A stretch of 14,839 bases of DNA from NCBI GenBank assembly GCA_016840305.1, contig JAEOSP010000524.1:1-14839 (forward strand), written 5' to 3'. Within the stretch, counting starts at the first letter, position 1. Each line of letters starts with the position of its first letter. A program made the translations under genes and the position numbers. The notes under the pieces are model-generated. The model made no database searches and had not been told where the DNA came from. It saw only the letters and a list, made by a program, of their open reading frames with translations. This document shows, piece by piece, positions 2,919 to 12,684 of this stretch. Source of the DNA: Candidatus Hodarchaeota archaeon (GTDB lineage: Archaea; Asgardarchaeota; Heimdallarchaeia; Hodarchaeales; Hodarchaeaceae).

Positions 2919-3434
2919 ATGACGATTCATTTTCATGAATTTCGGCAGGAATGTGTTTTTAAAACCCAATCTATCTGTTCATACTGGGAAAAACCCACAG
3001 AATGTCATATTCTAGCTTGTCCATTCTATTCTAATAAAACAGGACCTGAGAGACGCAGGGCCCTCGAAAAGCAGCTTCAAGACAAAGTTACATTTGACCC
3101 GAGAGATTTCGATAAAGTCGGAAATACTGTTCAGGATGTCATAAAAAGTAGCAAAGATAAGATTATTATCTCAGATAGTTCGGGTTCAAATATTTCAAAA
3201 ACATCAGCGTTTGTAGAGAAAACAATCTCTCGCATGCACTGCATAGCCTGTGGGGAATTAATAACAGAGGATAAATTTATAACTATTCGAGATCCAAAAG
3301 GAATTATAATTTATCTTCATTCGAAGGGAAAATGCAGTCCCCGTCATGATCAATTGAAAATCGCTCGTGATCGCTGGCATAAACTACGCCAACACGGGGA
3401 GATAATTAGTAGTTCACAGGAAACTGAAAGCTAA
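2919..3434 (+). CDS. Cysteine-rich small protein, probable metal binder
   Basis: A 171-residue soluble protein I do not recognise. Two cysteine groups stand out. The N-terminal one has Cys12, Cys20, Cys29 and Cys34 (EC, SIC, TEC, ACPFY); the C-terminal one has HCIACGE (Cys108, Cys111) and later KGKCSPRH (Cys139, with His143 close by). Between them (about residues 40-100) lies a charged, poorly structured linker. The layout suggests two zinc-binding knuckles, or an iron-sulfur site at the N terminus; no enzyme motif is visible. Lysine and arginine are abundant (RRRALEKQ, ARDRWHKLR), which would suit nucleic-acid contact. It has its own promoter and an inverted repeat upstream, and it precedes the peptidase gene by 110 bases. 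Coding is well supported by the conserved-looking Cys pairs and start; function is unknown. Confidence 0.65.
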   Translation: MTIHFHEFRQECVFKTQSICSYWEKPTECHILACPFYSNKTGPERRRALEKQLQDKVTFDPRDFDKVGNTVQDVIKSSKDKIIISDSSGSNISKTSAFVEKTISRMHCIACGELITEDKFITIRDPKGIIIYLHSKGKCSPRHDQLKIARDRWHKLRQHGEIISSSQETES

Positions 3435-7343: not shown

Positions 7344-7385
7344 CACACTTATTAGTACTACACAGTTAATTTTGAGTGAGTATTG

Positions 7386-8600
7386 ATGAATACTGATCTA
7401 AAAAAAGAATTTATTCAAAAAGCAAGAGCTGAGATATATTCCTGGTCTACGAATGATTTAACATGTCAATTAGCGAAAGAGGTAATGAGTATTGGTTTAG
7501 CTAAAATCAAATCATTTCTTCAAGCAGTAGAATCTGATCCAAGTGAAGTGCTTGTCGTTTTCGGTCCAGATGGGAGTATTACTAGAAATAAAACTCGTTT
7601 CAATGCAGGCGTTGGTTATGGTTGTGCTGTAGTGACAAAAGAGTATATTTTTCCAAGTTTATTGCATCCAAATGGTTGTGGATTTGGTCTTTATCACATT
7701 GAAGATTTACCCGCTTTATCCCTTCTAATGGATCGGTTAACGAATCTAAAGCATGATGGAGTTCCTGTGGGTGATAAAAAAGGAAAATGGGATGTATGGA
7801 AGTCGAATCACTTTATTGATATATTAAGAATTGATTCTTCATTCAAAAGCTTATCTAGTTACTCCAAATTCCTTCCTGAAGGAATTTATGCACTTATTCA
7901 TTCATCCCAACAGACCGAGAAACAGATGCTTAGCTATTGGAAAGAAGATGAATTTGTTAAAGTAAATACACCATTTGGGATGGTGGAAGGGTTGATAGAT
8001 CAATCAAGAGATGATTATTTAGAGTATTTTCAACGCGTGGAGGAATATTCAAAACAAAAGCGCACCTCGATAGCTGAAAAATTGTTTGGGGAAAAAAATT
8101 TCACTTGTATTTCAAACCCTACTCATCAAGGGTATTTCAAGGAAAATAACTTTTTTACCATGCGTCTTGGTCTATATAACACCCTCAATAAAACTGGTGA
8201 TAATTCTCTTCCACTTTTTCCGATTGGGTTTAATGCCTATTCTTTTATTTACTTATATGAAGGTCTACCGAACATAAAACAGATACAATGGACAGGAAAA
8301 CAACTCCAACAGGCAGAAGATAATGCTCATACATCTATCCTTGATAAAATTAATATTCTACCTCATGGTGGAGGATATAAGCTAATCTATCCATTTGATA
8401 AAGCAAGCATAGTTATACATAAGAATGAGTTTTATTATGAGCTTTCTCAAGCTCCAGTAGAGAGTCGTATGATTATACAGGATGTGGATGCCTTGGAATA
8501 TGGTTATAGGAGCCAATTCGAAGTTTTACCGATTGTAGATAGATTAGAACTTGGAAAATTCGCCGCACGATTTGTACCAATTCAAGTTATAAAGTATTAA
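7386..8600 (+). CDS. Divergent RtcB-superfamily protein (putative RNA ligase-like)
   Basis: A 404-residue protein with no close relative known to me, but with the ordered motifs of RtcB, the metal-dependent 3'-phosphate RNA ligase used in tRNA splicing. RtcB's DINCGVR region corresponds to PNGCGFGL (Cys98), GNHF to SNHFIDI (Asn141, His142), IHSGSR to LIHSSQQ (His172), the HN site to NPTHQG (His247), the late GSMGTASY region to FPIGFNAYSFIY, and the guanylylated-His motif HGAGR to PHGGGYKL (His327). Spacings between successive His residues (30, 75, 80) are near those in P. horikoshii RtcB (31, 95, 75), while the Cys-to-first-His gap is about 60 residues shorter. The metal Asp of DINC is a Pro, and Ser-Arg of HSGSR is lost, so activity may differ. 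I take ATG 7386; a TTG precedes it directly. It could also be a metal-binding protein that only shares the fold. Confidence 0.6.
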   Translation: MNTDLKKEFIQKARAEIYSWSTNDLTCQLAKEVMSIGLAKIKSFLQAVESDPSEVLVVFGPDGSITRNKTRFNAGVGYGCAVVTKEYIFPSLLHPNGCGFGLYHIEDLPALSLLMDRLTNLKHDGVPVGDKKGKWDVWKSNHFIDILRIDSSFKSLSSYSKFLPEGIYALIHSSQQTEKQMLSYWKEDEFVKVNTPFGMVEGLIDQSRDDYLEYFQRVEEYSKQKRTSIAEKLFGEKNFTCISNPTHQGYFKENNFFTMRLGLYNTLNKTGDNSLPLFPIGFNAYSFIYLYEGLPNIKQIQWTGKQLQQAEDNAHTSILDKINILPHGGGYKLIYPFDKASIVIHKNEFYYELSQAPVESRMIIQDVDALEYGYRSQFEVLPIVDRLELGKFAARFVPIQVIKY

Positions 8601-8606
8601 AGCTAA

Positions 8607-8618
8607 TTTTCTTTTTTT
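8607..8618 (+). terminator. T-run terminator after the RtcB-like gene
   Basis: TTTTCTTTTTTT begins nine bases past the stop codon; a second T-run (GTTTTTTTAA) follows at about 8650. Such T-runs end transcription in archaea without a hairpin. Confidence 0.45.
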
Positions 8619-8685
8619 CAGTTCGATCTAGTTTGAATCCCCACTTGGTAAGTTTTTTTAACCCAAAGATTGGTAAACACTTAGG

Positions 8686-9597
8686 ATGAAAGATCATCAA
8701 TCTGATAAATATATTACCAATATCTTTCCCTCATCTTCTGATGATTTTTCTTTCCCTGGGCGTAAATCCTTATTAGAAAGCTTGGAATTACAATTAGGGG
8801 TGAAAGGAGATGTATGGATCCACCATGCTTATTCTGTTCCTGCAAAAGATCCTCTATTGATTGATGAGCAATATGAAATACAATATCAAGATAAGATCAT
8901 TGTTCCTTCAGTTCTTCATACTCTTATAGATAAAGTAGGGAGTAGAAGAACTACGAGTCTTGCTGCAATTTGCTCAATGAAAAGCCCAGAACTGATTTTT
9001 CTCTTAGATCCAGCAACAATGAATTTATCCATAGTTTTTCAAGAAAAATTGTGGGTTACAGAGGTCCTATTAAAACAAGCAAATTTCCTGTATCCTTCAC
9101 CACATCCACGTGAACATGCTTTAACAAATCTGGAAAAAACAAAGGTCGAAATTATTAATTCTGATATTTCGATAGAACTTAATGGTCATCGAACAGAACG
9201 AGGCATAGAACAAGACGAAATTTTAATTCCTCTTGATTCAAATTACCGTCCAGTTCTCGGAGGACAAGATCCTGCCTCACGTTTTAAATCCCCAATTCCA
9301 AGATTGACAGATACAGGAGAACTGGTTCTAATGATTTCTGATGCAATATCCTCCTCTGCAAAAATGTATCTTGGTACGGTTAATGTTCGGCTTAATGAAG
9401 ACCAAGTTGCTCTTGAATACCCATTAGAAGTTAATATTGCATGTCTGAAGTTGTATCGTCGATTTGTTGATATTATCGAAGTGAATTCACCCTCCCATTT
9501 AGAAAAAACAGAACTCCAACAGATAAACTTTCGAATTTATCGAACAGAAATAACTCGTCCGATGCGACAGTTAATCGAGATTCTTCACATTCGGTGA
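8686..9597 (+). CDS. Hypothetical protein, 303 residues
   Basis: I do not recognise this protein. It is soluble, with no signal peptide or membrane segment and no clear nucleotide-binding or catalytic motif. The first third holds FPGRKSLLESLELQLGVKG and many Asp/Glu. The middle has EKLWVTEVLLKQANFLYPSPHPREHAL, and the second half alternates beta-type stretches (DISIELNGHRTERG, EILIPLDSNYRPVLGG, ELVLMISDAI, KMYLGTVNVRLNEDQVALEYPLEVN), which suggests a beta-rich domain of sandwich or barrel type. Only two Cys are present. The start ATG at 8686 has no clear Shine-Dalgarno, although TTAGG directly precedes it. Its last 27 bases overlap the 3' end of the opposite-strand ArsR gene. It lies 85 bases after the RtcB-like gene, with T-runs between, so it may be a separate unit. 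Coding is likely from length and composition; function is open. Confidence 0.6.
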   Translation: MKDHQSDKYITNIFPSSSDDFSFPGRKSLLESLELQLGVKGDVWIHHAYSVPAKDPLLIDEQYEIQYQDKIIVPSVLHTLIDKVGSRRTTSLAAICSMKSPELIFLLDPATMNLSIVFQEKLWVTEVLLKQANFLYPSPHPREHALTNLEKTKVEIINSDISIELNGHRTERGIEQDEILIPLDSNYRPVLGGQDPASRFKSPIPRLTDTGELVLMISDAISSSAKMYLGTVNVRLNEDQVALEYPLEVNIACLKLYRRFVDIIEVNSPSHLEKTELQQINFRIYRTEITRPMRQLIEILHIR

Positions 9598-10414: not shown

Positions 10415-11257
10415 ATGTCAAATAAAGAAATAAGTGATTTGAAAACCCTAATAAGAGCATTGGACATACGCTTAAAAGCTGAAGAAATAACTGAGGAAGA
10501 GCATCACTCTTTGAAGGAAAAATATGAACAGCGACTTAATGAGGAGATCAAACTCGTAAAAGAAAACAGTTTATTTCGAAACTTATCATATGTATCAATT
10601 TCAGGTTCAGGAAAGGTCACAGATTCTTATATTTCAATCTCAGGTTCAGGCAGAGTTGAAGGATGGAAAGGTGGAACGATAAAAATCTCAGGTTCAGGGA
10701 AAATATCTGAAGAGGAGATAAAAATCTCAGGTTCAGGTGTATTGCCAGGTGATCTTGTTGCAGAGGAGCTAAAAGTCTCAGGATCAGTAGAAGTTGGAGG
10801 TCCTCTTGAAGTATCCATTTTCAAAACATCAGGATCCTTCAAAGTTGAGGGTCCACTTTCAGTACATTCAAATCTTACTGTATCCGGTTCTGGAAAGATA
10901 GAAGGATCGTTATTAGCTCATCAAGCCTCTTTTATCTCCAGTGGTTCTATAAAAGTTGATGGAGACGTTTTTTGCAACGAGGCTGACCTTTCTGGTGCAT
11001 ATGAATTATTTGGATCTGTAAATTGTGATGAATCATTTTCGTCAGAACTAAATGGTAAATCTAGAATAAAGGGAGATCTAGTATGTGGCGGAGATGTTTA
11101 TATTGAACAAGGTTCAAGTAGAGGTTCTCTTACAGTAGAAAACATCCAAAGTTCAGGTGAAGTGTATCTTGAAGGTGTAAAAGCAAAATCGGTTAGCGGA
11201 AAGAAAGTTAAGCTCGGAGATGACTGCGAAATTGACTCTATTAAGGAGACAGGTTAG
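10415..11257 (+). CDS. Bactofilin-like beta-helical polymer-forming protein
   Basis: A 280-residue soluble protein with two parts. Residues 1-50 are a charged helical hairpin (DLKTLIRALDIRLKAEEITEEEHHSLKEKY in outline), similar to SHOCT and to the tail of the ArsR neighbour. From about residue 58 to the end it is a beta-helix of short repeated turns: SISGSGKV, SISGSGRV, KISGSGKI, KISGSGV, KVSGSVEV, KTSGSFKVEG, TVSGSGKIEG and further looser copies. Bactofilins and related archaeal and bacterial families (DUF583-type) build filaments from such helices and act as scaffolds. No membrane segment or signal is visible, so a cytoplasmic role is likely. The repeats show in the DNA too: CAGGTTCAGG occurs at 10602, 10641, 10689 and 10728 (spacing 39, 48 and 39 bases). 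GGTGAT (10404-10409) lies five bases before ATG. It is likely co-transcribed with the archaeoflavoprotein. Confidence 0.85.
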   Translation: MSNKEISDLKTLIRALDIRLKAEEITEEEHHSLKEKYEQRLNEEIKLVKENSLFRNLSYVSISGSGKVTDSYISISGSGRVEGWKGGTIKISGSGKISEEEIKISGSGVLPGDLVAEELKVSGSVEVGGPLEVSIFKTSGSFKVEGPLSVHSNLTVSGSGKIEGSLLAHQASFISSGSIKVDGDVFCNEADLSGAYELFGSVNCDESFSSELNGKSRIKGDLVCGGDVYIEQGSSRGSLTVENIQSSGEVYLEGVKAKSVSGKKVKLGDDCEIDSIKETG

Positions 11258-11304: not shown

Positions 11305-12123
11305 TTGGACCTAGCTTCATTTATCTCAAATCACCGAGATAATTTAATCGTATGGTGCTTAACAGGAGGGGGAGATTTTTTTGATGAGAACTATAAAGTA
11401 TTTTCAAAACTATATTTGGAGGGTCATCCAGTTCTGGCAATTTTTTCGAATGCCGGAGCTGTTGTACAGAATCGCTATGGTTTTTTTTGGAAACTCACTA
11501 AACTAAAATCGAAAAATGATAATGCTCTTTTTCTTTTTGAAAGCCAAGGAGGTTTACAAAATAACATACGGATTCTTCTTGAAAAAGCAAATATCCCTTA
11601 CAACGTGTTTCCTCAAGACCAAGCGTTCTCCCTTGGAATTTGGCTTGCAAACCAAAAAGTCAAATGTATTATTGCTAGCCCATTAACAGCGAATTCCGTA
11701 GCTAAACTTACTCACGGAATTGCTGATACATTGATTGTTAATATCTTGTCTTCAGGGAAAAAAGCGAATCAGCTGATAGGTATATTTCCAACTGATCGCA
11801 GTTCGGATTCAATTCTGACAACACTTCCAGTTCGTCAGAAAAAACCTCTACGAAAAGAAAGTATTAGTATCGATGTTTGTGCTTTTGGGGCTCTAGAGAT
11901 AAGTTCACCATCTCATTTGAAATTTTCATCAGAAAAGTGTGTGGGTTGTCAACACTGTGTCCAAAAATATCCTGATTATTTTAGTGTTAATGAGGAACTA
12001 GAGGTTCAAATTAGAAAAGTTGATCAACTTAACTCTCAGAAATTGGAAAGTGAATTCCAGATCTTTCATACTCCAAACGATATTGTATCCTTTGTTTCAA
12101 TGTTGGGAGTAGGAATTAATTAA
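11305..12123 (+). CDS. Archaeoflavoprotein (AfpA/DmrB-like) with a C-terminal cysteine cluster
   Basis: A flavoprotein of the HFCD family (fold of phosphopantothenoylcysteine decarboxylase), subgroup AfpA/dihydromethanopterin reductase-like. The signatures are LIVWCLTGGGDFFDENYKVF (flavin phosphate region), then IFSNAGAVVQNRYGFFW and, most telling, IIASPLTANSVAKLTHGIADTL, followed by GIFPTDRSS and TTLP. Members bind FMN and pass electrons from ferredoxin to a substrate. The tail adds Cys192, then Cys212, Cys215 and Cys218 (KCVGCQHCVQKYPDYF): a CxxCxxC group like half of a ferredoxin, which may hold an iron-sulfur cluster. The start is uncertain: TTG 11305 has no ribosome-binding site, while the frame is open back to 11245, just after the bactofilin-like gene's AAGGAG (11243-11248) and AGGT. 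An unusual start (ATT 11260 or CTG 11266) is possible. It converges with the GTPase gene; the stop codons are six bases apart. Confidence 0.85.
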   Translation: MDLASFISNHRDNLIVWCLTGGGDFFDENYKVFSKLYLEGHPVLAIFSNAGAVVQNRYGFFWKLTKLKSKNDNALFLFESQGGLQNNIRILLEKANIPYNVFPQDQAFSLGIWLANQKVKCIIASPLTANSVAKLTHGIADTLIVNILSSGKKANQLIGIFPTDRSSDSILTTLPVRQKKPLRKESISIDVCAFGALEISSPSHLKFSSEKCVGCQHCVQKYPDYFSVNEELEVQIRKVDQLNSQKLESEFQIFHTPNDIVSFVSMLGVGIN

Positions 12124-12129
12124 CTCTCT

Positions 12130-12684
12130 TTATACGATATTCAATTCCTTATATTTCTCTATATAATCTTTGATTGACATACCTAATTCCTCAAAAGCTT
12201 CCGTGACATTCAGTCCTGTTTTAGCTGAAGTTTTCAGGAATTTAATGTCGAAGGGGATATCCGTAATCTCGGATTGCATTTTTTTGACAAATTTATCCAC
12301 ATCACTTTGCTCGATTGCTTCTGGTAGATCACTTTTATTACCAAGAATAAGATAGGGTACTTCTCTCCCTACATTTGCAAAAAGCTCATCCCTCCATTTC
12401 TCGAGATTGTAAAGAGAATCGATGCGAGTTTGATCAAAAACTAAAATTGCTCCGTGTGATCCTTTGTAGTATAACGCTCTAACAGCTGAAAACCGTTGTT
12501 GACCTGCTAAGTCCCAAATCTGAAATTTATATTGAACTCCATCAATAGGAAGGTTTTGAACCGCAAAATCTGCCCCAATGGTCAAGATATATCCGCTTTG
12601 GAATCCTTTTCCAAGAAATCGTTCACGAAGTGATGTCTTTCCTACTCCACCATCACCGAGTAAACAGATTTTATACAATGGCAC
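12130..12684 (-). CDS. Ras/Rab-type small GTPase
   Basis: A 184-residue small GTPase with all five nucleotide motifs: G1 GDGGVGKT (10-17), G2 Thr35 (LTIGAD), G3 WDLAGQQRF (Asp58, catalytic Gln62), G4 GNKSD (116-119), G5 TSAKTG (152-157). It should bind and hydrolyse GTP. The WDLAGQQRF motif and the switch I sequence resemble Rab/Ras-superfamily members common in Asgard archaea, which also have many copies; they are counted among eukaryotic signature proteins. It has no C-terminal cysteine, so no prenylation; a short helical tail (SIKDYIEKYKELNIV) ends it. Start GTG 12682-12684 is preceded by GAGGG (complement of 12693-12697) eight bases upstream. It is transcribed alone, possibly from a TATA element at 12731-12738. 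Its partner (GAP, longin or other effector) is not in the window. Confidence 0.95.
   Translation of the reverse strand: MPLYKICLLGDGGVGKTSLRERFLGKGFQSGYILTIGADFAVQNLPIDGVQYKFQIWDLAGQQRFSAVRALYYKGSHGAILVFDQTRIDSLYNLEKWRDELFANVGREVPYLILGNKSDLPEAIEQSDVDKFVKKMQSEITDIPFDIKFLKTSAKTGLNVTEAFEELGMSIKDYIEKYKELNIV

Follow-up and report, generated by a model that had tools for sequence, protein, structure and literature searches.

To our knowledge, joining of RNA at a 3'-phosphate by way of GMP on a histidine is known from no RNA ligase family besides RtcB. The enzyme has essential roles in tRNA splicing, according to an account that also gives the human counterparts of its metal ligands (PMC8668186). 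In canonical RtcB, metal A is described as held by Cys98, His234 and His329, and metal B by Asp95, Cys98 and His203 (PMC10630183); among the human RTCB mutants reported in PMC10944509, D119A shows weak guanylylation, guanylylation of C122A and H353A was not detectable, and no mutant ligates. Here we compare with these enzymes the product of a gene at positions 7386 to 8600 of a 14,839-nucleotide stretch of DNA from a Candidatus Hodarchaeota archaeon (contig JAEOSP010000524.1; the whole stretch is called the window below). We put at about even the chance that this protein is a working enzyme of the RtcB superfamily which belongs to a separate, unnamed branch, has a rebuilt second metal site, and acts on phosphate ends, most likely those of RNA. 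The gene and the positions that matter most for this reading are as follows.

7386..8600, + strand: RtcB-like gene, 404 residues, ATG at 7386, stop at 8598-8600 (open reading frame)
7668..7682, + strand: P95-N96-G97-C98-G99, counterpart of DINCG (RtcB) or DIGCG (RtcB2) (hhalign against RtcB2)
7803..7814, + strand: S140-N141-H142-F143, counterpart of GNHF (RtcB N202, H203) (profile alignments, conservation)
7899..7901, + strand: H172, counterpart of RtcB H234, metal A (profile alignments, conservation)
8124..8126, + strand: H247, counterpart of RtcB H329, metal A (profile alignment, conservation)
8364..8375, + strand: H327-G328-G329-G330, counterpart of HGAG, with H327 in the place of the guanylylated His404 (profile alignments, conservation)
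8592..8594, + strand: K403, counterpart of the RtcB C-terminal Lys (human K504, guanine contact) (profile alignments)

A TTG at 7383 is also possible as the start of the gene.

Fold and motifs of the RtcB-like protein

The AlphaFold2 (AF2) model of the 404-residue protein has a pLDDT of 94.3 and a pTM of 0.92, and a fold search with it gave strong matches to RtcB only, far above all else, with the RtcB fold spanning nearly the full length of the protein and with 14–17% identity in structure alignments to canonical RtcB. An unrelated fold, which a preceding reading of the sequence without database searches (the sequence-only reading) had named beforehand as counting against itself, was looked for, and the RtcB fold was found instead. 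At E ≤ 1, Pfam gave two chance-level matches and none to RtcB, and the sole NCBIfam match was NF007153 (E 4.6e-4, 19.3 bits, cut-off 407); a single-sequence search of the PDB was empty, and no Pfam or NCBIfam cut-off was reached by the window protein. Among 102 family members scanned, five reached E 0.01 with PF01139 (best 8.7e-4), the best E-value with NF007153 was 2.1e-5, and the cut-off of TIGR03073 was exceeded in 0 of 20 carrier genomes. The Pfam and PDB results would suit a protein unrelated to RtcB in which the motif order is a coincidence; against this stand the fold search, the profile alignments and the family hidden Markov model, by which an unrelated protein is computationally ruled out, and we regard the probability of coincidence as negligible. 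Because RtcB is far ahead in the fold search and the ligands are invariant in archaeal and bacterial members alike, the resemblance is more than chance. By predicted fold and catalytic residues the protein is a member of the RtcB superfamily, yet it is not a canonical RtcB, since the Asp ligand and a PF01139 score were both looked for and neither was found.

The six motifs quoted in the sequence-only reading are all present in the 404-residue open reading frame: NGCG at residue 96, SNHF at 140, LIHSS at 170, NPTHQG at 244, GFNAYS at 281 and PHGGGYKL at 326. That they follow the order of RtcB holds for five, which pair with RtcB motifs in profile alignments. For the Cys motif the pairing appears with RtcB2 alone (C98 pairs with the Cys of E. 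coli RtcB2 in hhalign of the family segment; E 1.5e-5, probability 79.6); when hhalign is run against canonical RtcB by itself, the motif is placed about six residues off, with a segment probability of 11.5. GFNAYS, in contrast, does not pair with PGSMGT of RtcB, and position 286 is Ser in just 61 of the 206 non-identical full-length relatives on which all conservation counts given here are based. With four canonical RtcBs from related genomes as the reference, the His-to-His spacings are roughly similar, as had been proposed (30 against 31–32, 75 against 89–94, and 80 against 71–77), but the Cys-to-His spacing is 44 as against 105–106. Most of the approximately 75 residues by which the protein was rightly said to be shorter than RtcB therefore fall between the Cys motif and the first His.

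Active site and its conservation

C98, H142, H172 and H327 are invariant in the family (206/206), as are G99 and F143; H247 is found in 205 relatives, with one gap, and N141, the counterpart of the phosphate-contacting Asn, in 203. From this pattern, site A is predicted to be complete and site B to lack only its Asp; as aligned, the nucleophilic His404 and the metal-A ligands Cys98, His234 and His329 are retained as counterparts. The replacement of the Asp of DINC by Pro, first read from the window protein, is a family-wide trait, with position 95 being Pro in 199 relatives and Ile, Ala or Val in the remaining seven. Two residues before the Cys, position 96 is Asn in 203 relatives and Asp in three, and Asn96 may replace Asp95 at the second metal. 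A branch that naturally goes without a metal ligand needed for ligation by human RTCB thus offers a way to ask, in a naturally occurring protein, what the second metal does.

Counterparts of the acid and the Lys that contact guanine (Glu206 and Lys480 in RtcB) are both present in 133 of the 206 relatives, one of the two in 28, and neither in 45, counts that are uncorrected for kinship. The window protein has both, as D145 and K403, the latter position being Lys in 154 relatives. Among the sequences printed, 30 are without the Lys, most of them from a clade with members labelled Heimdallarchaeota/Kariarchaeaceae, and in these the acid is missing too, so that base specificity, judged from these residues, probably varies within the family.

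The same residues bear on the possibility that nucleotidyl transfer has been lost and that the protein carries out hydrolysis alone, of 2',3'-cyclic phosphate or another phosphodiester, with one metal at C98, H172 and H247. The missing metal-B Asp, the matching human RTCB mutant being reported as ligation-dead (PMC10944509), and the one clade without both guanine contacts would fit such a loss. However, hydrolysis alone would not obviously demand both an invariant nucleophilic His and a nearly invariant phosphate-holding Asn, and we hold this alternative to be quite improbable.

Three loci (L154, L155 and L156, from G109, G141 and G129) form a sub-branch with IDFCG for PNxCG and with Ser or Gly for the Asn preceding the first His, possibly a further active-site variant.

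Distribution, coexistence with canonical rtcB, and selection

No description of this RtcB-like family was found in the literature searched, and the branch is, as far as found, without a name in curated family libraries; the listed members with a source name are annotated as hypothetical protein. Named homologues at 55–85% identity nearly all carry Promethearchaeota, Heimdallarchaeota, Hodarchaeota or Hodarchaeales labels, with one from Thorarchaeota. These labels, and a small GTPase encoded in the window, agree with an Asgard source of the Hodarchaeales type. In the phylum of the Asgard archaea, for which a common ancestor with eukaryotes has been argued, the new family has matches in 112 of 227 genomes at E ≤ 1e-3 and in 102 at E ≤ 1e-20; the ten weaker ones comprise two short fragments and eight matches at 7.5e-5 to 4.6e-4, of which at least three sit within the canonical rtcB gene. 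Canonical RtcB itself is found in 200 of the 227. In the phylum of a Bathyarchaeial carrier, two of 200 genomes were positive at E ≤ 1e-20, the carrier included. A scan of contigs from species representatives confirmed 131 relatives, of which 80 were kept as 78 loci, with labels covering Asgard, Bathyarchaeota, Altiarchaeota, Methanocellales, DPANN and several bacterial phyla. Together with the fold, the profile alignment and the invariant catalytic residues, this wide distribution backs the earlier proposal of a new RtcB branch.

The presence of a canonical rtcB in the same genome, a question raised from the sequence, could be answered by proxy: the window's own genome lies outside the sample, but the canonical gene occurs in 26 of 29 paralogue-carrying genomes (fragmentary in some) and in 11 of 12 Hodarchaeal genomes, the carriers without it being one 1.4-Mb Hodarchaeal assembly and two bacteria. 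The RtcB-like paralogue is therefore no substitute for canonical RtcB. Each of the 12 Hodarchaeal genomes holds one to three divergent copies; the second and third copies (L142–L148, L160 and L078) belong to other clades and have neighbourhoods unlike that of the window-type gene. A 349-residue Hodarchaeal open frame with weak RtcB similarity (L106/L107; G011:C145:1816-2493) carries DIGCG and GNHF, and by its sequence is apparently of neither the canonical nor the window type.

A decayed or purely structural paralogue, also considered in the sequence-only reading, would account for the divergent sequence and the loss of one ligand. It is disfavoured by catalytic residues that are kept across 206 archaeal and bacterial sequences, by the presence of the family in the 102 Asgard genomes noted above, and by the ratio of nonsynonymous to synonymous substitution rates (dN/dS), which is 0.22 in the single low-dS pair of Hodarchaeal copies and 0.07 in two pairs at dS ~1.5, as under purifying selection, the remaining pairs being near saturation. 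The shortened copy at L010 also speaks against decay, as it is a stretch of N in the assembly that interrupts the gene, and not a stop. We consider decay very improbable.

Phosphoesterase genes beside relatives

Around relatives that lie outside the window-type block, a Pfam scan covered 148 open reading frames adjacent to the gene and 148 farther away. The adjacent set contained 16 HD, eight AP_endonuc_2, five GDPD and four Metallophos proteins (33/148), as against at most 4/148 in the distant set, where none of these families had two or more members. With the distant set taken as one each, Fisher's p was 9e-5 for HD, 0.02 for AP_endonuc_2 and, with all four families pooled, 1e-7, values to be read in the light of loci that are not independent, near-duplicates that were removed by hand, and families that were chosen after the counts were seen. 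An HD-domain gene lies beside the RtcB-like gene or one gene off in 18 of 79 loci, from DPANN, Thor- and Hel-type and other archaea and from several bacteria (in L023, PF01966 at E 3.8e-14); in 12 loci the two genes are immediate neighbours on one strand, and in four of these their ends overlap by 4 bp. Genes of the metallophosphoesterase and GDPD clusters are at most two genes away in five of the seven opened loci of Heimdallarchaeota/Kariarchaeaceae type (L149–L153). As the four folds are unrelated and all include phosphoesterases (AP_endonuc_2 also isomerases), this pattern suggests that the RtcB-like enzyme needs a phosphate-ester-processing partner, which is supplied differently by lineage.

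Such neighbours also bring in a different explanation, namely an RtcB-fold nucleotidyltransferase or cyclic phosphodiesterase that works on a small phosphate ester, such as a sugar, cofactor or lipid head-group, with its neighbours in the same pathway. GDPD proteins, five among the adjacent frames scanned, have glycerophosphodiesters as their known substrates; one AP_endonuc_2 neighbour has similar scores with models of an epimerase, deoxyribonuclease IV and the cobamide phosphodiesterase CbiR, all below cut-off; ATP-grasp, pyruvate kinase and other metabolic genes are neighbours at a few loci; and a small substrate would be in keeping with the loss of about 60 residues from the stretch that links the Cys motif to NHF. 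However, no single metabolic pathway was seen repeatedly beside the gene, the neighbours differ by lineage, and a tRNA methyltransferase-type gene (GCD14) adjoins it in seven Altiarchaeal-type loci, so we judge a small-molecule substrate to be rather unlikely.

In these seven loci (L017, L019, L026, L030, L042, L049 and L050), the gene in question, from the GCD14/TrmI-type tRNA methyltransferase cluster, is upstream of the RtcB-like gene and points away from it; the assignment was tested in L017. The metallophosphoesterase at L149 3285-4871 has sub-cut-off matches to models of an anti-phage phosphoesterase and of 2',3'-cyclic nucleotide phosphodiesterase, and matches PADLOC PDC-S10 at E 4e-17. 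In two bacterial loci the genes after the RtcB-like gene (L069:11201-12436 and L072:3089-4321) start alike, with the HD gene on the opposite side; the latter matches TIGR00375 (E 3e-63, below cut-off), and from its motifs we take its product to be PHP-like.

Proposed activity

In the activity that we propose, the protein would bind a divalent metal (Mn2+ in known cases), move GMP from GTP onto His327 and pass it to a terminal phosphate, either a 3'-phosphate or a 2',3'-cyclic phosphate and most likely on RNA, and broken or processed RNA ends would in this way be capped or joined apart from ordinary tRNA splicing. A different arrangement, perhaps with Asn96, the next residue along, would hold the second metal, which RtcB binds through Asp95, and in several lineages an HD, GDPD or metallophosphoesterase protein would act jointly with the enzyme by trimming or preparing the same ends. 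With the Asp missing, ligation is the uncertain step. Most likely, the protein is a GTP-using His-nucleotidyl enzyme that acts outside ordinary tRNA splicing, perhaps with another nucleotide in some clades, and it is plausible that its substrate differs from that of canonical RtcB.

Several observations weigh against an activity of this kind. Both the approximately 60 residues that are gone between the Cys motif and NHF and the SRG stretch, which is altered after the H234 counterpart, could carry RNA contacts. Since the guanine-contacting acid and Lys are both gone in 45 of 206 relatives, GTP may go unused in part of the family, and since D119A, the human mutant of the matching Asp, is ligation-dead, ligation cannot be assumed. 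As for neighbours, none with an HD domain was seen in 61 of the 79 loci, many of them short contigs; both G004 copies in the Heimdallarchaeota/Kariarchaeaceae-type clade (L142 and L143) are without metallophosphoesterase or GDPD neighbours; and neighbours of GDPD or isomerase-like type would suit small molecules no less than RNA. No phosphoesterase neighbour was found in the window or in its own clade, and such neighbours are missing at many other loci, so that the argument for a partner reaches the window protein by homology alone.

At the level of the whole family, we suggest more tentatively, and with somewhat less than an even chance, that it may be a third, functionally distinct enzyme class of the RtcB superfamily, with the second metal on an Asn or Asp two residues before the Cys, interchangeable coupling to HD, GDPD or metallophosphoesterase proteins, and a part in a pathway for the repair or processing of phosphate ends for which no described counterpart was found; it would be common in Asgard archaea and scattered in DPANN, Bathyarchaeia, Altiarchaeota and anaerobic bacteria. 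An unnamed branch alongside RtcB in close to half of the Asgard genomes that were searched would mean that a processing activity for RNA or other phosphate ends has been missed by current family models.

The Hodarchaeal gene block

Hodarchaeal loci share a block in which a gamma-glutamyltransferase gene, the RtcB-like gene and a 303-residue orphan follow one another, and in most of them an ArsR-type regulator, a bactofilin-like gene and a flavoprotein-ferredoxin gene come after the orphan. Directly downstream of the RtcB-like gene, the window contains:

8601..8685, + strand: 85-bp spacer with two 7-T runs, by its sequence a possible archaeal terminator
8686..9597, + strand: 303-residue orphan, a conserved Hodarchaeales neighbour and weak candidate partner (homologues, synteny)

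The suggestion that the orphan might be a partner of the RtcB-like protein gains from the 12 Hodarchaeal loci, out of 13, that have the orphan directly after the RtcB-like gene, the exception being L010, where the RtcB-like gene ends at a gap in the assembly and no orphan turned up. It loses, however, from the long syntenic block in which both genes lie, from the T-run spacer between them, and from the absence of an orphan homologue in the other 66 loci of the neighbour survey and in 20 further opened loci; outside Hodarchaeales it is phosphoesterase genes that recur as neighbours. Because the whole block is conserved, adjacency says little, and the case for a partner is weak. The orphan has 52 homologues, itself counted, of which 0 have a precomputed Pfam domain and the named ones are Hodarchaeal, Heimdallarchaeotal or Promethearchaeotal; its AF2 model (pLDDT 78) gave no clear fold match.

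Elsewhere in the window, the bactofilin-like protein kept in the Hodarchaeal block is encoded at 10415-11257 (+; PF04519, E 4.4e-10), followed at 11305-12123 (+) by a flavoprotein with a ferredoxin-like C-terminal part, which resembles the dihydromethanopterin reductase model TIGR02700 (98/251 bits, below cut-off). A small GTPase at 12130-12684 (-; TIGR00231, E 4e-26) is presumably Ras/Rab-like, from its motifs. Upstream, 2919-3434 (+) encodes a 171-residue Cys-containing protein with no Pfam match over cut-off, whose cluster is kept upstream in 10 loci, the window among them.

Comparison with known RtcB systems

With canonical RtcB and RTCB (PF01139; P. horikoshii PH1602 and human RTCB), the window protein shares its predicted fold and the counterparts of C98, H203, H234, H329, H404, N202 and the C-terminal Lys. 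It differs from them in its shorter length, in the replacement of Asp95 (P95-N96), in the changed SRG stretch, and in the Arg of HGAGR, which is changed (HGGGY). Archaeal rRNA is described as being circularised by way of EndA and RtcB, and one recent survey found RtcB by means of PF01139 (PMC12918454), a model that is blind to the window protein; as canonical RtcB is present, there need be no further enzyme for such circularisation.

RtcB2 of the RtcB2-PrfH module (TIGR03073, NF007153; E. coli) is likewise short, at 379 residues, and its DIGCG aligns with PNGCG, but it retains the Asp that the window protein lacks. As for a prfH gene beside it, no release factor appeared when 10 of the 28 open reading frames of the window were scanned with Pfam, and none was among the commonest 25 of 135 families for the 148 neighbouring frames of relatives. 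RtcB2-PrfH is described as repairing colicin-cut 16S rRNA (PMC9223846). RtcB paralogues can thus specialise in repair. Myxococcus RtcB3, to which 5'-phosphate capping is reportedly ascribed, further suggests by analogy that RtcB paralogues can take on other phosphate-end chemistry.
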